From the IMG/VR virus record IMGVR_UViG_3300025652_000644, positions 1 through 21,891 of that record: a DNA stretch of 21,891 nucleotides; one strand, 5' to 3'. Every line of letters begins with the position of its first letter. Position 1 is the stretch's first letter. The notes beneath the pieces are model-generated. The model saw nothing but the letters and a program-made list of their open reading frames with translations, searched no databases and was not told the origin of the DNA. This DNA comes from a virus. Position numbers and translations under genes: made by a program. This document shows, one piece after another, positions 7,563 to 19,703 of the stretch.

Positions 7563-8168
7563 ATGAATTTACTAACTCAAAACTCAAAATTAAAAAAGAC
7601 ATCTAAATCGCTAGGTGTCCGTGTATTCAACTTTGGTATACCAGCTTATAAGTCCGCATCAGGCAAACTAACATGCCCTATGGCAGATGCTTGTGTCAAA
7701 TTTTGTTATGCTAAAAAAGGTGCATACATCTGGTCTAATGTACAACCAGCATTCGAAAAGCGTTATCAATTATCTAAGACAGATGACTTTGTTAATAAAA
7801 TGTACTCAGAAATAGTTAAAAAGAAACCAGACTATGTAAGGGTACACGACTCTGGCGACTATTATTCTAAAAAATACCTAAACAAATGGATCGACATTGC
7901 CTTATTATTTCCAGAAGTTAAGTTTTACAGCTATACCAATATGGTCGAGATGATGCTATACACGTCTCTACCTAGTAACTTCGACATCATATTCAGCGAT
8001 TCAGGCAAACAAAAGCATATGATAGACAAAATACAACACAGGCATACTAAAATATTCTCTAGCAAGGCAGAATTAGATGACGCAGGCTATATTGATGCAT
8101 CTTCTATCGATCTTATGGCAACAAAATGGTTTAATAAAACAAATAAAGTAGGACTAATTATACACTAA
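7563..8168 (+). CDS. Gp88-like phage protein with Cys cluster
   Basis: A 201-residue protein resembling the phage 'gene product 88' family, from memory of the pattern. Residues about 39-51 read CPMADACVKFCYAKKG, a C-x5-C-x3-C-Y-A cluster. These are followed by an aromatic region (YIWSNVQPAF), then RVHDSGDYYSKKYLNKW at about residues 92-108, then FYSYTN. The Cys spacing and the following strand-helix repeats recall iron-sulfur or radical-SAM-like TIM-barrel proteins, but the canonical C-x3-C-x2-C is not exact and the reaction is unknown. It leads the transcript from motif copy 10 and is followed by two small genes. The family call is good; the function is not. Confidence 0.7.
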   Translation: MNLLTQNSKLKKTSKSLGVRVFNFGIPAYKSASGKLTCPMADACVKFCYAKKGAYIWSNVQPAFEKRYQLSKTDDFVNKMYSEIVKKKPDYVRVHDSGDYYSKKYLNKWIDIALLFPEVKFYSYTNMVEMMLYTSLPSNFDIIFSDSGKQKHMIDKIQHRHTKIFSSKAELDDAGYIDASSIDLMATKWFNKTNKVGLIIH

Positions 8169-10928: not shown

Positions 10929-11453
10929 ATGATATTAAACGAGAAATTAGCTACTATCCAAACAAAGTTTAAATCTAAAAAGTCTAGATTTAACTCCTTC
11001 GGTAAATACAACTTCAGATCCGCCGAAGACATTCTTGAAGCAACAAAGCCCTATTTATTAGAACTAGGAGTCTCAGTCGTTATTAGTGAACAACTAATAT
11101 CAACGGATCCATTTCCAATACTAGAGTCAAAAGCTACAGTAACTGATGGCAAAGATGCTATACACGCGACTGCTATTGTCGGTATTGATCTTGATCAGAA
11201 AGGTATGCAAATGCCACAAAAGTTTGGTAGTGCTTCCAGTTATGGAAAAAAGTACGCTCTTGGAAATTTATTTCTAATTGATGACACGCAGGACAGTGAC
11301 GCTGCTAACAGTCACGGTAAATCAAAAGCAGTAAAGCCTAAGTTAGAAGGCCAAGCATTAGTTAAAGCTAAAGAGTTTATAGCTAAAGGCGGTAGTATCG
11401 ATGCTATTAAAGGTAAATACGATATTCCTCCTGCTGTTTTAAAAACATTGTAG
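10929..11453 (+). CDS. ERF-family single-strand annealing recombinase
   Basis: A 174-residue protein with the hallmarks of the ERF superfamily of phage annealing proteins. Near the N-terminus it has FGKYNFRSAEDILEATKPYL, where ERF proteins carry F-K-Y-(A/V)-(S/T)-xxDI...PLL. At about residues 98-120 it has GSASSYGKKYALGNLFLIDD, then TQDSDA, the G-A-x-SY-x-(R/K)-(R/K)-YAL signature. The C-terminal third (KGGSIDAIKGKYDIPPAVLK) is a small helical tail. ERF proteins form rings that anneal single strands during phage DNA circularisation and recombination. The adjoining exonuclease is the expected partner, only one base away. Confidence 0.9.
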   Translation: MILNEKLATIQTKFKSKKSRFNSFGKYNFRSAEDILEATKPYLLELGVSVVISEQLISTDPFPILESKATVTDGKDAIHATAIVGIDLDQKGMQMPQKFGSASSYGKKYALGNLFLIDDTQDSDAANSHGKSKAVKPKLEGQALVKAKEFIAKGGSIDAIKGKYDIPPAVLKTL

Positions 11454-12194
11454 ATGACAGATAAACAAAAAGTTAAAATTCTAAAAGAACTAGAAGATGA
11501 CGAAAAGTATTATGGAGCGTTCGGTAAGCAGTATTTATCGAACTCTGATATACGAGCTCTGTTAAATGATCCTCTAAATTTTAAAAAACCTATTGTAGGT
11601 AATCCAAACTTAGTAAAAGGTGGTTACTTTCATACGTTAGTTCTAGAACCTGATAAGTTAGAGCAATATAAGATCATTGAGGCAGGTAGTAGAAACACTA
11701 AGCTGTATAAGGATTTATCAGGCGGTGAGATGTGTCTGCTACAGAAAGAAGCTGATGAGCTACAAGTGTTAAGAGATAAACTTATGGCAAACGATGTTTG
11801 CAGAGAGTTGATACAAGATATAGATGTAGAGTATGAAGTACCTGGTTTGATTGAACTTGGTGGTGAAATGTGGAAACTTAAAGCAGATATAAAAAACAAT
11901 ACAGAAAGACTAGTTATCGACTTAAAGACCACGTCAAACATTGATAAGTTTGCTTACTCAGCAAAAGAGTATAACTATGATAGTCAAGCTTACATATACT
12001 CATCGTACTTTAATATGGATATGATATTCATAGCTGTAGACAAGATATCAGGTAAAATAGGTATATTCGATTGTTCTAGTAGTTTTTTAGAACGAGGTAA
12101 AGAGAAAGTAGAAAAAGCTATAGAGCAATATAAGCTGTTCTACAAAGACAAAGACTTTGATCCTGCTCAGTACTTAGTAACAAAGACGTTGTAG
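11454..12194 (+). CDS. PD-(D/E)XK recombination exonuclease (RecE/lambda-exo-like)
   Basis: A 246-residue protein. The N-terminus carries YLSNSDIRALLNDPLNFKKP, like the SNS-x-I-x-x-L-x-x-P-x-x-F/Y pattern of RecE-type nucleases. The active site is visible as MWKLKADI (K-x-D) around residue 145 followed by LVIDLKTT (D-x-K) near 158. YDSQAYIYSSYFN follows, as in the QxxxY motif. Such enzymes resect double-strand ends to give 3' single strands for the annealing protein. It starts directly after the ERF stop (TAG then ATG), and its own stop abuts promoter motif copy 12. Substrate polarity cannot be read from the sequence. Confidence 0.85.
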   Translation: MTDKQKVKILKELEDDEKYYGAFGKQYLSNSDIRALLNDPLNFKKPIVGNPNLVKGGYFHTLVLEPDKLEQYKIIEAGSRNTKLYKDLSGGEMCLLQKEADELQVLRDKLMANDVCRELIQDIDVEYEVPGLIELGGEMWKLKADIKNNTERLVIDLKTTSNIDKFAYSAKEYNYDSQAYIYSSYFNMDMIFIAVDKISGKIGIFDCSSSFLERGKEKVEKAIEQYKLFYKDKDFDPAQYLVTKTL

Positions 12195-12195
12195 T

Positions 12196-12238
12196 TTACA
12201 AAAAAAATACGTTAGAAAAACGATAATATATATAACAA
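12196..12238 (+). promoter_or_regulatory. bipartite promoter-like motif, copy 12
   Basis: Left box TTACAAAAAAAATACG (12196-12211), 10-base spacer, right box beginning GATAATATATATAAC (12222 onward). It starts one base after the exonuclease stop, and the SSB-like gene starts 26 bases after it. It is the last clear copy, so all genes from the SSB to nrdA may depend on it or on read-through. Confidence 0.7.
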
Positions 12239-12264
12239 TAATTAATAACTAAAAATCAATTAAA

Positions 12265-12579
12265 ATGGCAAGTATTATTAACGCAAGTATCAATTTAAAC
12301 AATATTGATAAATCAAAGATCATCGATGGTAAAAAAGGTAAATATCTACCTATTAGTATCACTATTAACGACGAGCCTGATCAGTTCGGTAATCAAGGAC
12401 CTATAACAATAGCTCAAAGCAAAGAAGAACGCGAAGCTAAATCAGCTAAAACTTATTTGGGTAATGTAAAAGTAGTTTGGACAAACGGAGATAACGTATC
12501 AGCAGCGCCTAGAGACGGTCAACAGGCTCAAGCACCAGCTCAGTCATTAACTCCTCAAGCGGATGATCTACCTTTTTAA
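12265..12579 (+). CDS. single-stranded DNA-binding protein-like (acidic DDLPF tail)
   Basis: A 104-residue protein. The N-terminal 75 residues are beta-rich (SIINASINLNNIDKSKIIDG, then KYLPISITINDEPDQFGNQG), followed by a Gln/Ala/Pro-rich linker and the terminal ADDLPF. A disordered linker ending in D-D-(I/L)-P-F is the signature of bacterial SSB proteins, where the tip binds partner proteins. The body is shorter than a standard OB-fold SSB (about 110 residues), so it is a divergent phage form. Location between recombination genes and primase-helicase supports the role. Confidence 0.75.
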   Translation: MASIINASINLNNIDKSKIIDGKKGKYLPISITINDEPDQFGNQGPITIAQSKEEREAKSAKTYLGNVKVVWTNGDNVSAAPRDGQQAQAPAQSLTPQADDLPF

Positions 12580-12701
12580 TGGCGATGTATGCAAATGGAA
12601 AAACAGGTGTTATAACATATACCTGTGAAACGTGTGAAAAGATTATGACTGAAGAAGATCATGACTTTTGTGATATGTGCCCTGATTGCTTAGACGGGTA
12701 G
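12579..12701 (+). CDS. 40-aa zinc-ribbon-like mini-protein
   Basis: A 40-residue frame starts at the SSB stop (TAATG overlap). It carries CETCEK near residues 16-21 and CDMCPDC at residues 31-37, so two CxxC pairs could hold one zinc ion. It ends LDG. Its position between the SSB-like protein and the primase-helicase and its one-base overlap make it a credible gene. Function unknown; a zinc-ribbon contact with DNA or a replication protein is possible. Confidence 0.6.
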   Translation: MAMYANGKTGVITYTCETCEKIMTEEDHDFCDMCPDCLDG

Positions 12702-12734
12702 TAACAATTAAATTAAATTAAATACCGCAATTAA

Positions 12735-14441
12735 ATGCAGACAGTAGAGATCAATGGATTCGAGATTGACACGTTCAATCAACATAAGCTTGAAGAGGGA
12801 AAGAAACAAGGTATATGCCCTGTTTGTTCTCACGATAGAAAACCCAAGAATCAAAAAGCACAATGTGCTTCTTACGATTGGGAACGGGGTCTCGGTACTT
12901 GTCATAACTGTAACAACAGTTTTCAACTACATACATATAAACGTAAAGGTGACAGCGAAAAAGTATATGTCAAACCAGAGCCTATAGAAATAGTACAGCC
13001 TGGAACCAAAGTTGAAGGTTGGTTTGAAACAAGAGGTATTTCCAAACAGACCCTTAGTGACTTAAAAATCACTGAGGGACCTGAATGGATGCCACAGACC
13101 GGTAAAACCGAGAATGTAATAAAGTTTAATTATTTCATGGGCGATCAACTTATCAATGTTAAGTATCGTGATGGAAGAAAAAACTTTAAATTATTTAAAG
13201 GCGCTGAGAAAGTGTTTTACAACATAAACAGTATAGTAGGTTATGAGTACTGTGTTATTGTTGAAGGAGAAATGGATGTGCTCGCATTGCATGAAGCTGG
13301 TGTAACTAACGCTATATCAGTACCTAATGGAGCAACATTGAATACTAACAACTTAGAATACTTGGATTCTTGTATTGATTACTTTGAAGACAAAGAAAAA
13401 ATCATATTAGCTGTTGATGATGATGAAGCTGGTCAAGCTTTACAGTCAGAGTTAATAAGAAGACTTGGTTCTGAAGTTTGTTTTATAGCTTCATTTGAAG
13501 ATTGTAAAGACGCTAACGAATACTTAGTAAAACATGGTAAAGAAAAATTATCCCAAAGGATCACCGCAGCGAAACCAGTTCCTCTTGAAAACGTCACAAC
13601 TTTCAGAGATATCGAGGACGAGGTTACTGATTTTGTTAGAAATGGCTTTAAACCAGGATTTCAGGTTGGCCTTGAAAATTTTGATAAAATATTTTCAACT
13701 TACACTGGTCAGTTCATTACTGTTACTGGCATACCAAGTTCCGGGAAAAGTGATTTTGTCGACCAAATGGTTGTTGGCTATAATCAGAATTATGGTTGGA
13801 AAACAGCTTTTGCTTCACCTGAGAATCAGCCGACTTATCTGCACGCTCATAAATTAATGCGTAAGACTTGGCAGGGTATGCCAACAGAGTCTGATATTGG
13901 CGGTGATAGATGGAATCAAATAGCAGATCATTGCAATAGCAATTACTTTCACATTGACATGGAACGTTATACATTAGATTCAGTGCTTAAAAAATCTGCT
14001 GAACTTGTTAAACGAAAGGGCATCAAGTGTCTAGTCATTGATCCATTCAATAAAGTTAGAGACGTAGGTGGTTCTGATGATGTCAATAGATACACTATGG
14101 AGTATTTACAGAAAATAGAAATATTTGCTAAAAAATACGACGTACTAGTTTTTATTGTTGCGCACCCAACTAAAATGTACAAAGATAAAGATGGTAAAAT
14201 TGAAGAGCCTACTATGTACAACATTAAAGGTGGTGGTGAATGGTACGATGCCTCATATCACGGTATATTAGTTCACAGAGACTATGAGAATAAAACGGTT
14301 AAAGCTAAAGTATTAAAGGTTAAGTTCCAAAACCTTGGAGAAAACGGCGCTGAAGCTCACTTTAGATGGGAACCTAAGTCTGGTTGTTTTATACCTCATC
14401 AACCTGTAAACTTAGACGGTGATCCAATGCCTTGGGAATAG
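12735..14441 (+). CDS. primase-helicase (T7 gp4 / Twinkle type)
   Basis: A 568-residue fused replicative primase-helicase, close to the length of T7 gp4. Residues 28-59 form a zinc ribbon (CPVC at 28-31, CHNC at 56-59). The TOPRIM primase core shows VEGEMDVLAL near residue 177 and AVDDDEAG near 226. The RecA-like helicase domain has Walker A GIPSSGKS near residue 332, ASPEN around 357, Walker B CLVIDPFN near 433 and VAHPTK near 478, with a C-terminal FRWEPKSGCF segment. It unwinds duplex DNA as a ring and lays down primers at a fork. It is followed immediately by the next start (TAG then ATG). No DNA polymerase gene follows. Confidence 0.93.
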   Translation: MQTVEINGFEIDTFNQHKLEEGKKQGICPVCSHDRKPKNQKAQCASYDWERGLGTCHNCNNSFQLHTYKRKGDSEKVYVKPEPIEIVQPGTKVEGWFETRGISKQTLSDLKITEGPEWMPQTGKTENVIKFNYFMGDQLINVKYRDGRKNFKLFKGAEKVFYNINSIVGYEYCVIVEGEMDVLALHEAGVTNAISVPNGATLNTNNLEYLDSCIDYFEDKEKIILAVDDDEAGQALQSELIRRLGSEVCFIASFEDCKDANEYLVKHGKEKLSQRITAAKPVPLENVTTFRDIEDEVTDFVRNGFKPGFQVGLENFDKIFSTYTGQFITVTGIPSSGKSDFVDQMVVGYNQNYGWKTAFASPENQPTYLHAHKLMRKTWQGMPTESDIGGDRWNQIADHCNSNYFHIDMERYTLDSVLKKSAELVKRKGIKCLVIDPFNKVRDVGGSDDVNRYTMEYLQKIEIFAKKYDVLVFIVAHPTKMYKDKDGKIEEPTMYNIKGGGEWYDASYHGILVHRDYENKTVKAKVLKVKFQNLGENGAEAHFRWEPKSGCFIPHQPVNLDGDPMPWE

Positions 14442-14690
14442 ATGGCTACTAAAAAAAGTCCATGGGACATGGGAGAATATATGGCTTCTGACAAAGACAA
14501 TAAAGCTTATGATTGGTGTATTAAAAATGGAATATACATATCACCAACAGCTATGTCTGAAGGAGCTTGGTGGTTAGATATAGATAACAACAACAAGATA
14601 AATAGAAGCCCTAAGACATTCACTAAGACTGCAATATGGGAAAAAATGTACGAATACTATAATTATTATTATGACAAATACAAGAAATAA
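14442..14690 (+). CDS. unknown 82-aa protein
   Basis: An 82-residue protein starting MATKKSPWDMGEYMASDKDN, rich in Trp, Tyr and Lys (GAWWLDIDNNNKINRSPKTF), ending in a Tyr-rich MYEYYNYYYDKYKK helix. It starts directly after the primase-helicase stop and overlaps the dCMP enzyme gene by about 20 bases, so it belongs to the replication operon. No family recognised. Confidence 0.65.
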   Translation: MATKKSPWDMGEYMASDKDNKAYDWCIKNGIYISPTAMSEGAWWLDIDNNNKINRSPKTFTKTAIWEKMYEYYNYYYDKYKK

Positions 14691-15321
14691 ATTTAATAAC
14701 GCTACTGAAGCATTTGACTATCTGCTCGATAAGATTAGGCTAGATGGTGTAGACTTTAACGGTACTAAAGCTTTATTTAATGTTGGTTTTTATATGGAAG
14801 ATCCATCTCAAAAAATCATAAAAAATAAAGAACGTAAGTTTAGTGAAAAATATGCTGAGTCTGAATGGCTTTGGTATCTTTCAGGAGATAGAAGTGTAGA
14901 GCGTCTCGGTGCTATACACGGCAGAATTCCTCCGATTTGGCTACGTATGGCTGATGAAGACGGTAATGTAAACTCGAATTATGGTTGGCAATGGAAAAGA
15001 AATAATCAACTGTATAAAGTTATAGCCATGCTTGAGAACAATCCTAACACTAGGCAAGCAACTATTTCTATATATGACGGAAAAGAAATAGACAATTACT
15101 CAAAAGACACGCCATGTACTTATGCAGTTCAGTTTACGATCTTAGATAATAAGTTATGTATGTCAGTTCTGATGCGTTCTAATGATCTCTGGTACGGTTT
15201 CTGTAATGATCAGTATCAATTCGCAACGTTGCAACAAATGGTCGCAGACAGTCTGTCTATTGAGACCGGTTGGTATTACCATTACGCACACAATATGCAT
15301 TTATATAACGATAAACTTTAA
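14671..15321 (+). CDS. dCMP (hydroxy)methylase-like enzyme of the thymidylate synthase fold, C-terminally short
   Basis: A 216-residue enzyme of the thymidylate synthase superfamily. SNYGWQW lies near residue 107, TPCTYAVQF carries the catalytic Cys near residue 149, MRSNDLWYGFCND lies near 168-180, and MHLYNDK near the end supplies the His and Tyr. In E. coli thymidylate synthase the Asn of GLPFN fixes dUMP; here the aligned residue is Asp (GFCND), as in T4 dCMP hydroxymethylase, which has GFRND. SNYGW and MRSND also follow the T4 enzyme. I therefore predict dCMP as substrate, giving 5-hydroxymethyl- or 5-methyl-dCMP. The protein ends about 30 residues earlier than the T4 enzyme, so the C-terminal flap is missing or shortened. 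The neighbour carries a MazG domain that could supply dCMP. Confidence 0.75.
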   Translation: MTNTRNKFNNATEAFDYLLDKIRLDGVDFNGTKALFNVGFYMEDPSQKIIKNKERKFSEKYAESEWLWYLSGDRSVERLGAIHGRIPPIWLRMADEDGNVNSNYGWQWKRNNQLYKVIAMLENNPNTRQATISIYDGKEIDNYSKDTPCTYAVQFTILDNKLCMSVLMRSNDLWYGFCNDQYQFATLQQMVADSLSIETGWYYHYAHNMHLYNDKL

Positions 15322-15333
15322 AAACAGCAAAAT

Positions 15334-16113
15334 ATGTATTATATTTATCACATTCCTGGTAAAAAAATAGGAGCAACACGTAATCTTAAGACAAGAGTAA
15401 CCCTTATGCAAGGCTATAAGGAGGGAGAGTATGAAGTTCTTGAGCAGTCAGAAGATATAGATTATATATCAGATCGCGAAATAGAACTTCAAAAGTCTTA
15501 TGGCTATAAAGTTGACAGACAAAAGTATAACAATTTAATTAAATCAAATAAAATGGAAGTAAACATCACAGAGCAAACAACAACGTTTCCAGTGCCTTTA
15601 AAAAAGCTTAAAGGTAGACTAATGGACTTAGTAGGTATGAAATGGAAAACATCAGAAGGAGAATTTGTATTAGATCAAAAGTCTATTGAATGGATATTAA
15701 AAAATTCTTATGTATCAATGTTTAACGATAAAAGGTGTTTTTTATATAACAAGGCACTAGCTGAGTACTTTAAGGGTGATGCTCCAGTTAAAAAACAAAA
15801 ACCAAAAGACAAAGAAGTTAAAGTTTTTAAAAAGATTAGACAATGGGCAACGGATAGAGGTTTATATGTAGCTGGTGATCCAATTACTCAATATGTTAAA
15901 CTTCAAGAAGAAGCAGGAGAATTAGCTCAAGCTTTACTTAAAGATGATCAGCCTGAAGTTATCGACGCTATTGGCGATATGGTTGTAGTTCTAACAAACT
16001 TAGCTCATCAAAGAGGTGTTAGCATTGAGCACTGTATTAATTCAGCATATGAGGTTATCGCAGAGCGTAAAGGTAAGATGATTAATGGAACGTTCGTAAA
16101 AGAAACATTATAA
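15334..16113 (+). CDS. GIY-YIG-like / MazG pyrophosphohydrolase fusion
   Basis: A 259-residue, apparently three-part protein. Residues 1-65 resemble a degenerate GIY-YIG module: YYIYHIPG, then KIGAT where YIG would stand, NLKTRV, and SDREIELQKSYGY. Residues about 74-160 are a middle domain of unknown type (PLKKLKGRLMDLVGMKWKTS), ending in a Lys-rich linker. Residues 170-255 form a MazG-type all-alpha NTP pyrophosphohydrolase with KLQEEAGELAQALL (EExxE) and VIDAIGDMVVVL (D-x3-D). This domain would cleave an NTP or dNTP to the monophosphate. An in-frame ATG at 15553, behind TTAATTAAATCAAATAAA, could start a second product without the GIY-YIG part. It overlaps the next gene as TAATG. Confidence 0.75.
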   Translation: MYYIYHIPGKKIGATRNLKTRVTLMQGYKEGEYEVLEQSEDIDYISDREIELQKSYGYKVDRQKYNNLIKSNKMEVNITEQTTTFPVPLKKLKGRLMDLVGMKWKTSEGEFVLDQKSIEWILKNSYVSMFNDKRCFLYNKALAEYFKGDAPVKKQKPKDKEVKVFKKIRQWATDRGLYVAGDPITQYVKLQEEAGELAQALLKDDQPEVIDAIGDMVVVLTNLAHQRGVSIEHCINSAYEVIAERKGKMINGTFVKETL

Positions 16114-16436
16114 TGGGCAAGCAGGAAATAGAATTTAGAGACCCAGTTGTAAAAAGAGTTGTAAAAAAGTTTGTTGATAGATCTAACCTAGGGTTTGAAA
16201 AGTACGGTAGAACCTTAGACGCTGAAAGAACTGGTGGTCATAAAGGTTTGTTTGGCTATTTAAACGACGTTCAAGAAGAACTAATGGACGCGATCTTATA
16301 TTTACAAGCAGCTAAGGAAGAGTATTCAGACCTTAAAGAGCAAAAGGAAATAGACACTGAATTAGAACGTATGGAACGTATGAATGTAATTGCTCAAAAC
16401 GGTAACACAGGAGAGCATTATGAAGAAAACTTATAA
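16113..16436 (+). CDS. small helical protein, possibly pyrophosphohydrolase-like
   Basis: A 107-residue protein starting MGKQEIEFRDPVVKRVVKKF. Its core, FEKYGRTLDAER...GYLNDVQEELMDAILYLQAA, recalls the KYG-T-L...L-x-x-(A/V)-x-EE-x-D-A-x-x-YL pattern of short MazG-like or related phage proteins. The C-terminal third is a charged helix. The EELMD segment could bind magnesium, but the full EExxE/ExxD set is not visible, so activity is uncertain. It directly follows the MazG fusion (TAATG) and overlaps the resolvase gene by 17 bases. Confidence 0.65.
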   Translation: MGKQEIEFRDPVVKRVVKKFVDRSNLGFEKYGRTLDAERTGGHKGLFGYLNDVQEELMDAILYLQAAKEEYSDLKEQKEIDTELERMERMNVIAQNGNTGEHYEENL

Positions 16437-16878
16437 ACGTAAAAGTGGAAAAAGAGGTCCAGTAAGAGCAAAGAAGGTATCATATGATGGTATCGACTTT
16501 GCCTCAGGGCTTGAAAAGTATATGTACATAGCTCTTAAAAAAGCTAAGATAAAAACAAAGTACGAAGGAGAAACCTTTGTTCTATTAAATGGTTTTCATT
16601 TTGAAAACGAAGTATATGAAAGACAAGCAAATGGTAAAGGCGACTACGTAAACAGAGGTTGCAAAAGAATATTACCAATAAAGTATACTCCAGATTTCAT
16701 AGGTCAAGACTTTATAATAGAAACAAAAGGTAGAGCAAACGAATCATTTCCAATGCGTTGGAAGATGTTTAAGTTACTAGTGTCTAATCAGTTTCCAGGA
16801 CACACACTTTATAAACCACAAAATCAAAAAGAATGCGACGAGACGGTAAGGCTGATTTTAGAGAAACAAAACACATAG
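16420..16878 (+). CDS. T7 endonuclease I-like Holliday junction resolvase
   Basis: A 152-residue nuclease starting MKKTYKRKSGKRGPVRAKKV. It follows phage T7 endonuclease I: FASGLEKYMYIALKKAKIKT carries the first catalytic Glu, YTPDFIGQDFIIETKG supplies the Asp and the Glu-x-Lys pair (PD-(D/E)XK core), and a basic helix follows. Such enzymes cut branched DNA and help package or recombine phage DNA, dimerising across a junction. I chose 16420 over an ATG at 16390 because GGAGAG lies 7 bases ahead of it, one of the few SD-like sequences in the window. The gene overlaps neighbours on both sides. Confidence 0.85.
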   Translation: MKKTYKRKSGKRGPVRAKKVSYDGIDFASGLEKYMYIALKKAKIKTKYEGETFVLLNGFHFENEVYERQANGKGDYVNRGCKRILPIKYTPDFIGQDFIIETKGRANESFPMRWKMFKLLVSNQFPGHTLYKPQNQKECDETVRLILEKQNT

Positions 16879-17021
16879 CTAGACAAAAATACGCCGAAAG
16901 ACAAATTGATAAGTTTGTGAAGTGGAGCTGGGAAGCTAAAGGCAAAGTAAAGTATTCAGATATAAAACAATTACACAACAGATACGATATAGAATGTTAT
17001 GCAAGAACAAGACGAAAGTAA
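16833..17021 (+). CDS. unknown 62-aa basic protein
   Basis: A 62-residue frame starting MRRDGKADFRETKHIARQKY, with FVKWSWEAKGKVKYSDIKQL and a terminal HNRYDIECYARTRRK. It is strongly basic. The first 46 bases overlap the resolvase gene and a later start is not obvious. The unoverlapped C-terminal half looks like a natural protein and the next gene overlaps its last bases, so a gene is likely although the exact start is uncertain. Function unknown. Confidence 0.5.
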   Translation: MRRDGKADFRETKHIARQKYAERQIDKFVKWSWEAKGKVKYSDIKQLHNRYDIECYARTRRK

Positions 17022-17154
17022 AAAAGGTTGGGCAATAGAAATTGGTATTTACCCAGGAGTATTATTCGGTGTAAGAAGCTACGAGGCGAAAGATGGTAAA
17101 ATACACGTGTTGTATTTACCGCTTATAGATATAGCCTTACATATATATGGATAA
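16999..17154 (+). CDS. conserved small phage protein, 51 aa
   Basis: A 51-residue product (MQEQDESKKGWAIEIGIYPG at the start) containing YPGVLFGVRSYE and HVLYLPLIDIALHIYG. This 'G-x-YPG-(V/I)-LFG-x-R-(S/T)-Y...YLP-(L/F)-(I/V)-D' pattern recurs among small proteins of marine phages near nucleotide genes; that is recalled, not searched. The hydrophobic C-terminal strand or helix could insert in a membrane, but is short. It overlaps the genes before and after. Function unknown. Confidence 0.6.
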   Translation: MQEQDESKKGWAIEIGIYPGVLFGVRSYEAKDGKIHVLYLPLIDIALHIYG

Positions 17155-17311
17155 TGATACAGAGATGAAGTTTGAGACAATAAATATGTTTTTAGGTAAT
17201 GTATTACTAGAAATGAAAAAAGTCTCAATTAAGTCATCTAAACAGGACATGTTAGCTTATATTAGCGCATGGGAAAACGAATTACAAACTATTAAATTTA
17301 TGATACAATAA
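17147..17311 (+). CDS. unknown 54-aa helical protein
   Basis: A 54-residue helical product starting MDNDTEMKFETINMFLGNVL, Met-rich, ending QTIKFMIQ. It overlaps the preceding gene by 8 bases and nrdB by one base (TAATG), so it is probably translated with the reductase genes. No family recognised. Confidence 0.6.
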   Translation: MDNDTEMKFETINMFLGNVLLEMKKVSIKSSKQDMLAYISAWENELQTIKFMIQ

Positions 17312-18279
17312 TGGGATTATTTGACGAGAGAATAGCATACAAGCCTTTTGAGTACCCAGAGTACTACACCGAGGGTTGGCTAAAACAAGCTCAGGCTTTT
17401 TGGCTACATACCGAGATATCAATGCAGAGCGATGTTAAAGATTGGAATGAAAAGTTAAACGCAAAAGAAAAAAACTTAGTTGGTAATATACTACTAGGAT
17501 TCGCGCAAACAGAATGCGCTGTCTCAGATTATTGGACACAAAAAGTTGTTGGTTGGTTTCCTAAACATGAGATACAGCAAATGGCTATGATGTTTGGGTC
17601 ACAGGAGACAATACACGCTGTTGCTTACAGCTACTTAAACGAAACATTAGGATTAGAAGACTATGAAGCATTTTTACACGAACCTGCAACGGCTAAAAGA
17701 TTTGAAAACTTACTTGCCTACTCAGGTAATACTCCTGCTAGTATCGGTAAGTCTCTTGCTATTTTTAGCGCTTTCGCTGAAGGAGTATCTCTTTACTCTG
17801 CTTTTGCTGTGTTATATAGTTTTCAGATGCGTAATCTCCTTAAAGGTGTAGGTCAACAAATGAAATGGTCTGTTAGAGACGAATCTTTACACAGTAAAAT
17901 GGGTTGTAAACTGTTTAGAGACATGTGCTCTGAAAATAATCAACTGTTAGATCTTTGCAGATCAGATGTTACCGATGCCGCAGAGACTATGGTAAAATTA
18001 GAAATAGATTATATTAACAAAATGTTTGAAATGGGAGATGTAGAAGGCATATCTGCTAATGATCTTAAGCATTTTATAAAAAAGAGAACAAATGAAAAAC
18101 TTGTGGAACTTGGCTACGTTGACCTTGGTTCGTACTTCGCGTATGACGAGAAAGCAGCAGCTAATCTTGATTGGTTCTATCATCTTACCGGCGGGGTCAC
18201 TCATACTGATTTTTTCGCGACTAGGCCGACGGATTATTCGAAAGCTGGTGAAGGAGAGGACTTTGAAGACATTTGGTAA
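17311..18279 (+). CDS. nrdB: class I ribonucleotide reductase, beta subunit
   Basis: A 322-residue R2 subunit that generates the radical for reduction of ribonucleotides to deoxyribonucleotides. All six metal ligands appear present: E68 (QTECAVSD; Glu in the place of the usual Asp), E99 and H102 (QETIHAVAYSY), E157 (FAEGVSLY), E191 and H194 (RDESLHSKM). The radical tyrosine position, seven residues after the E99 ligand, is Y106, so it should be tyrosyl-radical competent. The acidic C-terminus (AGEGEDFEDIW) is the type that docks on NrdA. Length is a little below the usual 340-375 residues. nrdA lies about 1.4 kb downstream, separated by small genes and an inserted cassette. Confidence 0.92.
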   Translation: MGLFDERIAYKPFEYPEYYTEGWLKQAQAFWLHTEISMQSDVKDWNEKLNAKEKNLVGNILLGFAQTECAVSDYWTQKVVGWFPKHEIQQMAMMFGSQETIHAVAYSYLNETLGLEDYEAFLHEPATAKRFENLLAYSGNTPASIGKSLAIFSAFAEGVSLYSAFAVLYSFQMRNLLKGVGQQMKWSVRDESLHSKMGCKLFRDMCSENNQLLDLCRSDVTDAAETMVKLEIDYINKMFEMGDVEGISANDLKHFIKKRTNEKLVELGYVDLGSYFAYDEKAAANLDWFYHLTGGVTHTDFFATRPTDYSKAGEGEDFEDIW

Positions 18280-18880: not shown

Positions 18881-19312
18881 ATGGAAATAGATATGAATAT
18901 AACGAGTTGGTCGGATCAAGACCTTGAATCTCTATGTCTTCCTGAAAACCATAAAATAACTTTTGACGGTTATGAATATTGGTGGTATCATAAAATACAC
19001 GGGAACAAATGGGATCTACATTACGTTAATGGCTTTGAAGACTGGAAAAAACCTTATAGTTGGCTGCAAGCTAGTCTATATAAATGGTCTAAAGAATTAA
19101 CTGATCGTAAAGTAAAATCAGCATCAAGTTATTTTTATCAGATGAAACAAAACTTAGAAAAAACTAAGGAAGTTATGTCTATAAGTAATAACAAGAAGCT
19201 AAAAACAAAAGTTAAAATTAGATTAATCAGAGAGCTAATGCCTAAGGAAACTGTTCAGTACGTTGCTGATGTGTTGAGTATAAGTAGACAAGCTGTTCAT
19301 AGACATTTATAA
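18881..19312 (+). CDS. HTH protein of the homing cassette
   Basis: A 143-residue protein starting MEIDMNITSWSDQDLESLCL. The N-terminal part is aromatic-rich (YEYWWYHKIHGNKWDLHYVN). The C-terminus is a clear helix-turn-helix (TVQYVADVLSISRQAVHRHL). It joins the GIY-YIG gene through TAA-T-ATG, so the two are expressed together and it probably regulates or assists DNA binding of the endonuclease. No known family is recognised. The alternative start M5 (18893) is possible. Confidence 0.65.
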   Translation: MEIDMNITSWSDQDLESLCLPENHKITFDGYEYWWYHKIHGNKWDLHYVNGFEDWKKPYSWLQASLYKWSKELTDRKVKSASSYFYQMKQNLEKTKEVMSISNNKKLKTKVKIRLIRELMPKETVQYVADVLSISRQAVHRHL

Positions 19313-19313
19313 T

Positions 19314-19703
19314 ATGACAAGAATACACGATGATAACAATGGCTACGCAAGTGAGGTAACTTATAAAAGAACACCAGAACAAAACAGGACGTCTAGACAA
19401 AAGTTTTTTGAAAAAATGTACCCTGATGCACCTAGAGAAGGTGTTTATATTATAAAGAACGAGATAAGTAATATAGTATATATAGGAGAGTCAAATAATT
19501 TACCTAGAAGATTAGCTGAGCACGTAGGAGGTTATGACAAAACAAAAAGCTTTCATAAAGGTAAACTTGATAGTTGCTTTGTTAAAGAGTTTTATAGTTA
19601 TGAAGTTATAGAAACCACTAGTAAGCAAGAAAGATTAATTAAAGAAATAGAACTAGAATTTAAACACGAGCCTAAGTATAATAAAAGATGGCGAACAAAA
19701 TAA
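19314..19703 (+). CDS. GIY-YIG homing endonuclease
   Basis: A 129-residue nuclease with a full GIY-YIG module. GVYIIKNE (Y45) and VYIGES (Y56-G58) form the paired strands. R65 or R66 in LPRRLAEH is the catalytic Arg, E106 in SKQERLIKEIEL is the likely metal-binding Glu, and PKYN (N123) closes the module. The N-terminal 40 residues (NGYASEVTYKRTPEQNRTSR) may be a short DNA-binding part. There is no separate long DNA-binding domain of the I-TevI kind; the neighbouring HTH protein could take that role. It lies directly ahead of nrdA and carries the insertion hallmark (duplicated nrdA start). Confidence 0.8.
   Translation: MTRIHDDNNGYASEVTYKRTPEQNRTSRQKFFEKMYPDAPREGVYIIKNEISNIVYIGESNNLPRRLAEHVGGYDKTKSFHKGKLDSCFVKEFYSYEVIETTSKQERLIKEIELEFKHEPKYNKRWRTK

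Follow-up and report, generated by a model that had tools for sequence, protein, structure and literature searches.

A predicted phage dCMP 5-hydroxymethylase in an exchangeable gene slot beside a MazG partner

A 21,891-nucleotide stretch of DNA from an uncultured virus (IMG/VR record IMGVR_UViG_3300025652_000644, positions 1 to 21,891; this whole 21.9-kb stretch is hereafter the window) encodes, between a primase-helicase gene upstream and ribonucleotide reductase (RNR) genes downstream, a protein with the thymidylate synthase (TS) fold. The question raised by this locus is whether the protein is an ordinary phage TS or an enzyme that modifies cytosine, and what its neighbours contribute. A preliminary description had proposed a deoxycytidine monophosphate (dCMP) hydroxymethylase followed by two MazG-type proteins, and the three open reading frames (ORFs) that it named are present at 14671-15321 (216 amino acids), 15334-16113 (259 amino acids) and 16113-16436 (107 amino acids). 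We consider it likely that ORF 14671-15321 encodes a dCMP 5-hydroxymethylase of the phage that occupies an exchangeable cytosine-modification slot with a MazG partner and whose product would enter the phage DNA.

Residues of the slot enzyme

ORF 14671-15321 matched the Pfam family Thymidylat_synt (PF00303) with an E value of 4e-27 and a score of 95 bits against a cut-off of 24. Its top sequence matches in the PDB were the CMP hydroxymethylase MilA, one TS and the T4 dCMP hydroxymethylase (dCH), with the remaining TS entries ranking below. We mapped individual residues by aligning the protein with E. coli ThyA, T4 gp42 and SPO1 gp29 from annotated records. Glu65, Trp90, Tyr104, Arg128, Cys149, Arg169, Ser170, Asp172, His210 and Tyr212 are retained, and GFCND aligns residue by residue with T4 gp42, as do the SNYGW and MRSND blocks that had earlier been likened to the T4 enzyme. 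The Asp of GFCND, which had been read as replacing the Asn that selects deoxyuridine monophosphate (dUMP), does fall on ThyA Asn177; it is present in 81 of 81 relatives and in all 239 loci that were typed (see below), so it is not there by chance. The features that carry the assignment are as follows.

14671 to 15321, plus strand: TS-fold enzyme, 216 amino acids, predicted dCMP 5-hydroxymethylase (T4 gp42-like), from PF00303, PDB sequence matches to MilA and T4 dCH, and residue mapping
14974 to 14982, plus strand: codons of Ser102-Asn103-Tyr104 (T4 Ser94-x-Tyr96), with Ser and Tyr in 81 of 81 relatives
15106 to 15108, plus strand: codon of Asp146, equivalent to T4 Asp145 of the water-activating hydroxymethylase signature (PMC6400193, extract) and to Leu143 of E. 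coli TS; Asp in 81 of 81 relatives
15115 to 15117, plus strand: codon of the catalytic Cys149 (E. coli ThyA Cys146, T4 Cys148), in 81 of 81 relatives
15208 to 15210, plus strand: codon of Asp180 (E. coli ThyA Asn177, T4 Asp179), assigned to cytosine selection, in 81 of 81 relatives

The hydroxymethylase signature described in an extract of PMC6400193 consists of an Asp (or Glu) three residues ahead of the catalytic Cys together with Ser-x-Tyr, the TS C-terminal tail being missing; T4 dCH also lacks this tail (PMC5175136 and PMC6400193, extracts). ORF 14671-15321 ends four residues past Tyr212, and its family terminates just after the equivalent of ThyA Tyr209. The catalytic residues and the signature (Asp180, Asp146, Ser102, Tyr104 and the tail-less end) were invariant across the 81 relatives. 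Thr150 occupies the position of ThyA His147 and has the same state as in T4 gp42; ThyA positions 147 and 177 are those ranked highest by MetaGPA for association with modified cytosine (PMC8670742, extract). SPO1 gp29, which hydroxymethylates dUMP, shares the Asp ahead of the Cys but has Asn at 177, and because it combines these two states, the residue before the Cys and residue 177 separate product from base. All available sequence tests agree with the earlier preference for a dCMP hydroxymethylase over a TS, and they add features that had not been named (Asp146, Ser102, Thr150 and the missing tail). Judged by these residues, ORF 14671-15321 very probably produces 5-hydroxymethylcytosine (5hmC) building blocks for phage DNA.

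An ordinary phage TS with an unusual residue would fit the family-level matches, which are named thymidylate synthase, and the gene content of 35 large contigs of relatives with the same enzyme type, 34 of which have no second PF00303 match and none of which has ThyX. However, Asp at 177, Thr at 147, Asp three residues before the Cys and the missing tail are all invariant, and the protein scores 80 bits against an NCBIfam TS equivalog cut-off of 327. We therefore rejected an ordinary TS on its residues, the Asn177 for dUMP being absent throughout, and regard this explanation as highly improbable. An enzyme that is cytosine-specific but methylates, making 5-methyl-dCMP as in phage Xp12, deserves more attention and is still unlikely. 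The Asn-to-Asp change is in itself sufficient to make a dCMP methylase of a canonical TS (literature cited in PMC8670742, extract), but Asp146 and Ser102, which activate water, are present in the window enzyme, and the tail by which TS closes its active site for hydride transfer is missing from it; moreover, the T4 variant D145N is unable to form the hydroxymethyl product (PMC6400193, extract). In the hydroxymethylase that we favour, Cys149 would attack C6 of dCMP, with the cytosine recognised by Asp180; the carbon would come from methylene-tetrahydrofolate, and water positioned by Asp146 and Ser102 would complete 5-hydroxymethyl-dCMP in a tail-less, solvent-open active site.

A second enzyme type in the same slot

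An alignment of the MazG partner, which holds no TS information, was used as a query and returned 80 loci, 78 of which reach the slot: 55 carry a hydroxymethylase-type enzyme and 23 a ThyA-like one. Frequencies here and below refer to the best 80 matches of each profile search and are not population estimates. All viral searches together gave 239 typed loci, 136 hydroxymethylase-type and 103 ThyA-type, on 215 contigs (126 + 89, with same-contig pairs identified by eye and with L150 and L153, which lie at contig edges and show no TS, excluded). Asp177 was recognised by pattern in 135 of the 136 hydroxymethylase-type loci and by reading in the last one. The residue three before the Cys is Asp in 136 of 136 hydroxymethylase-type and Leu in 103 of 103 ThyA-type loci, and the order helicase, slot enzyme, MazG is kept in all 215 loci that show both flanks.

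The ThyA-like slot enzymes are full length and keep Arg21, Leu143, Cys146, His147 and the C-terminal tail, with Asn177 changed to Asp. A search with these enzymes (the ThyA-type set, A3, took 15 of the 23 ThyA-type loci from the MazG search) found Asp177, His147 and a downstream MazG fusion in 80 of the 80 best matches. As a control, we typed the best 80 genome matches. Asn177 without a MazG gene accounted for 75 of them. Four had both Asp and MazG and resemble phage contigs that were binned into metagenome-assembled genomes (MAGs), and one, from a Bacteroidales MAG, had Asp but lacked MazG; the scan pattern itself included the Asp and favoured Asp matches, and Asn nevertheless predominated. 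The occurrence of Asp177 in both unrelated slot types, set against this background, supports our assignment. The Bacteroidales gene (L345, contig JAAZCF010000165.1) is ThyA-like, keeps Trp83, has no MazG fusion nearby and is perhaps a second natural Asp177 line.

A quick TS tree with long branches, built from random samples of 14 of 80 and 16 of 80 rows, three of the four phage-like genome matches and 16 of the 76 other genome matches, placed the two slot types far apart and grouped the ThyA-like enzymes with cellular ThyA (branch support 99). The most economical interpretation is two independent origins of Asp177, with the slot selecting for this residue.

The ThyA-derived enzyme should likewise act on dCMP. 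Our first guess at its product was 5-methyl-dCMP, since this is what a canonical TS makes after the Asn-to-Asp change and since Leu143, the tail and His147 are kept. Solvent access in E. coli TS is controlled by Trp83 (PMC6400193, extract), a position at which 82 of the 84 ThyA-like enzymes examined have Asp; hydroxymethylation by these enzymes is therefore possible too, and the methyl reading is weakened. Base composition, as a trace of 5-methylcytosine (5mC) deamination, did not differ between the types (GC 34.0% in 135 hydroxymethylase-type and 34.2% in 103 ThyA-type loci).

The slot and its flanks in the window are as follows.

12735 to 14441, plus strand: primase-helicase, the upstream flank and marker of phage relatedness, from profile matches and helicase trees
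14442 to 14690, plus strand: 82-amino-acid ORF overlapping the start of the slot gene, in 58 of 81 loci
14693 to 15328, plus strand: exchange slot, not alignable with otherwise collinear relatives (L209 and L220) bearing the ThyA-like enzyme, from blastn of window positions 11401-17400
16390 to 16878, plus strand: DUF1064 or Holliday-junction-resolvase-like ORF, the downstream flank, from profile matches and locus comparison

Between the window and relatives of the other enzyme type, DNA similarity breaks off very close to the ends of the slot gene. For L209 it extends up to 14692 and begins again from 15329; for L220 the interruption lies between 14692 and a restart at 15320; and with L122 it runs to 14448, covers a further 69 bases ending at 14692 and returns from 15330. 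Against L154, which has the same enzyme type, similarity is unbroken. Four more pairs of unlike type behave similarly at the downstream side, where similarity restarts within about 15 bases of the slot gene end in all four; upstream, it ends within about 15 bases of the gene start in two, and about 120 and about 200 bases ahead of it in the others.

The window helicase is nearest to helicases of phages with the other enzyme type (89% identical in L141, which lies on the same contig as L209), and helicases of phages with unlike slots are up to 96% identical. With 123 distinct helicases (78 + 45), the FastTree tree showed 17 type changes, at least 10 of them forced by well-supported branches, and the IQ-TREE tree 14, at least 9 forced, compared with about 37 under shuffling; a MazG tree gave 18, at least 8 forced. 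Because 14 to 17 changes are far fewer than expected from shuffling, the enzyme type is mostly inherited and yet repeatedly exchanged. Frequent recent swapping was considered and rejected, since among 112 loci the closest relative by helicase (identity of 80% or more) had the other enzyme type in only 14 cases, which again points to inheritance with exchange now and then. At 90-95% helicase identity, mean MazG identity was 0.74 in 15 unlike pairs and 0.82 in 61 like pairs, and the exchange may extend to flanking recombination. Within this phage group, the gene between the primase-helicase and the MazG fusion is thus exchanged for the non-orthologous, ThyA-derived Asp177 enzyme.

Downstream partners and pathway genes

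Four features lie directly behind the slot enzyme.

15334 to 16113, plus strand: fusion of a GIY-YIG-like and a MazG domain, 259 amino acids, the conserved downstream partner, from Pfam, a structure model and 76 of 81 loci
15334 to 15522, plus strand: GIY-YIG-like domain, residues 1-63, with Tyr5, Gly13, Arg21 and Glu49 invariant, from conservation, the model, I-TevI (1ln0) and T5orf172
15796 to 16110, plus strand: MazG all-alpha nucleoside triphosphate pyrophosphohydrolase domain with EExxE (192-196) and ExxD (208-211) intact, from PF03819/PF01503 over cut-off, 7ody (Z 9.7) and conservation
16113 to 16436, plus strand: helical protein, 107 amino acids, the conserved third gene, from 66 of 81 loci and the invariant residues of DxQEExMDAxLY

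The preliminary description had taken both downstream proteins to be MazG-type. For ORF 15334-16113 this holds: it passes the Pfam cut-offs of both PRA-PH and MazG, and the model of its MazG domain finds its best structural match in 7ody over 97 residues. The N-terminal GIY-YIG-like domain of the same protein had been missed. ORF 16113-16436 is indeed helical in its structure model and conserved, but it lacks profile or fold evidence of a MazG-type enzyme; a fold search with the model gave ten matches, none with an E value below 2.8. Structure models were built from 38 of 77 MazG rows and 39 of 67 helical-protein rows. Across the loci the MazG fusion and helical genes usually overlap or almost touch, and the slot enzyme and MazG genes often overlap by ATGA. 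We considered a TS-MazG fusion made by stop-codon read-through, since the genome search flagged long frames interrupted by TAG. The two genes share a frame in 15 of 77 two-gene loci; because the other 62 are out of frame and TGA and TAA are the commoner stops, we dropped read-through in favour of ordinary tight gene packing.

Residues 1-63 of the MazG fusion are modelled as beta-beta-alpha-beta-alpha and resemble the I-TevI catalytic domain (1ln0; Z 6.3, root-mean-square deviation 2.9, 61 residues), with the YIG Tyr replaced. A T5orf172 match just under the Pfam cut-off (E 0.0011) appeared in one of the four fusion members scanned, L147. An HHalign comparison of this domain with the window's own GIY-YIG ORF was not significant, and a PDB profile search with the domain gave no relevant match. 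Nuclease activity of the modelled N terminus is a possibility and is put no higher, because a Z of such size may reflect a common arrangement, the HHalign result is not significant and the signature Tyr is missing.

We propose that the MazG domain probably lowers deoxycytidine triphosphate (dCTP) and gives back dCMP as substrate for the slot enzyme. The 5-hydroxymethyl-dCMP would then be phosphorylated by host kinases, which we invoke because no phage kinase was found, and be built into phage DNA in place of dC. The earlier statement that no dedicated kinase or transferase is visible in the window held in the relatives searched. We searched 56 large contigs (35 hydroxymethylase-type and 21 ThyA-type), which may be incomplete; the two ends of one of them, G020, overlap at about 95% identity, so that this contig covers a complete genome, of which only part of the ORFs were scanned. 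Cytidylate kinase (PF02224) and Glycos_transf_2 (PF00535), sought in 35 of the 56, were found in none, other kinase and transferase families not being searched, and carbamoyltransferase was absent from the 35 hydroxymethylase-type contigs. Dihydrofolate reductase, as a mark of methyl chemistry, was found in none of the 56 contigs of either type and is uninformative.

Some observations weigh against the proposed assignment. T4 Arg124 corresponds to Gln129 in the window enzyme (Q, H, K or R across the family) and T4 Arg177 to Cys178, so phosphate and folate contacts would be unlike those of T4 gp42. In the relative L154, a hydroxymethylase-type gene (L154:2347-2994) has SSND for RSND and has thus lost the phosphate-binding Arg of MRSND. 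The structures that resemble the MazG domain differ in substrate, which bears on its putative dCTP specificity. Finally, a T4 gp1-type kinase (phrog_139) was found in 0 of the 56 contigs, where a different kinase may exist.

It could also be that the enzyme feeds the thymidylate or another nucleotide pool, the modified dCMP being deaminated later. The region would then be concerned with nucleotide supply, as the adjoining RNR genes suggest, and a dCMP deaminase is present on five of the 35 hydroxymethylase-type contigs. However, no dCMP deaminase match was found on the other 30 or on any of the 21 ThyA-type contigs, where a host deaminase could serve, and we give this explanation little weight, slightly below that of a methylase.

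Several further genes were recorded in the window and its relatives. A helix-turn-helix ORF and a GIY-YIG ORF (PF01541 over cut-off) lie at window positions 18881-19703 between the genes for the RNR small and large subunits; they occur in 0 of 81 relative loci and are probably a homing endonuclease insertion. A GP88 family protein (PF17338, E 6e-38) at 7563-8168 is found in six of 81 relative loci. One relative has the DNA ligase domains PF01068 and PF14743, both on the MetaGPA list (PMC8670742, extract). Relative G004 encodes a 518-amino-acid Cpn60/TCP1 chaperonin (L091:2551-4104, minus strand; PF00118, E 4e-56) with homologues in four other relatives compared, and L091:17905-18384 encodes a Pyr_excise-type protein (pyrimidine dimer glycosylase) conserved across five relatives compared. 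Giant ORFs are present at L092:10705-19446 (minus strand; 2913 amino acids, no Pfam match) and L193:929-9265 (2778 amino acids, no PHROG match).

Known systems and the meaning of the exchange

The window enzyme resembles T4 gp42 (PDB 1b49, 1b5e) in the residues corresponding to T4 Cys148, Asp145, Ser94, Tyr96, Thr149 and Asp179, in the MRSND and SNYGW blocks and in the lack of a TS tail. It is about 28-39% identical to the enzymes of T4-like phages and is shorter at the C terminus (216 against 246 amino acids). Unlike T4 gp42, it lacks Arg124 and Arg177, and no adjoining glucosyltransferase or gp1-type kinase was found; T4 gp1 phosphorylates 5-hydroxymethyl-dCMP, according to its record annotation. 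The closest named phage protein, 48.8% identical and with the same signature, is the product of the second TS-fold gene of Bacteroides phage BF486P2 (OP172667.1, 22603-23283). In contrast to the window, no MazG-fusion gene was found in the BF486P2 locus, and that phage has dut. As the nearest cultured phage it points, together with MAG titles, to Bacteroidota as possible hosts. BF486P2 carries two divergent TS-fold genes (L002:16271-17032 and L002:19104-19784), both with Asp at 177. The dCMP methylase of phage Xp12 is likewise a dCMP-directed enzyme of the TS superfamily (PMC5175136, extract), but it methylates, and we liken it by description and not by sequence. The window MazG protein shares its fold with the MazG-like pyrophosphohydrolase of cyanophage S-2L (7ody) and mouse dCTPase (6sqw, Z 8.0), and differs from both in its extra GIY-YIG-like domain and middle region.

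Phage dCMP hydroxymethylases were already known, as were Asp177 TS on modified contigs and their pairing with PF01503: in the extract of PMC8670742, PRA-PH/MazG beside an Asp177 TS is one of the domain combinations that MetaGPA detected where contigs carry modified cytosine, with the same diagnostic positions 147 and 177, and that study follows the carbamoyltransferase branch, a gene that we did not find in the 35 hydroxymethylase-type contigs. The slot exchange and the ThyA-like Asp177 group are not described in that extract, and our searches of the open-licence PMC literature turned up no description of such an exchange, of ThyA-like Asp177 enzymes occurring naturally as a group beside MazG or of the GIY-YIG-like MazG fusion.

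By modifying cytosine, phages protect their DNA from restriction, and host enzymes such as Brig1 (PMC11078745, extract) and CMoRE (PMC12923530, extract) attack the modified base in return. The alternative enzymes at the same position suggest that the enzyme responsible for the DNA disguise has been exchanged repeatedly among these phages. A locus with many replacements between two unrelated cytosine enzymes would amount to direct evidence of switching selection on modification type. Together, the residue three before the Cys and residue 177 form a natural two-by-two set, with Asp/Asp in T4 and the window, Asp/Asn in SPO1, Leu/Asn in TS and Leu/Asp in the ThyA-like slot enzymes, so that the rules of base choice and product choice are testable. 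More tentatively, and with somewhat more doubt than confidence, the slot may be a cassette for DNA base chemistry in which closely related phages swap, one gene for the other, a dCMP hydroxymethylase (5hmC) for a ThyA-derived dCMP methylase (5mC) beside the same MazG partner. If so, the engineered Asn-to-Asp dCMP methylase would have a large natural counterpart in the ThyA-derived group, and a swap would alter the base disguise without altering the rest of the genome and could outrun modification-dependent host defences.

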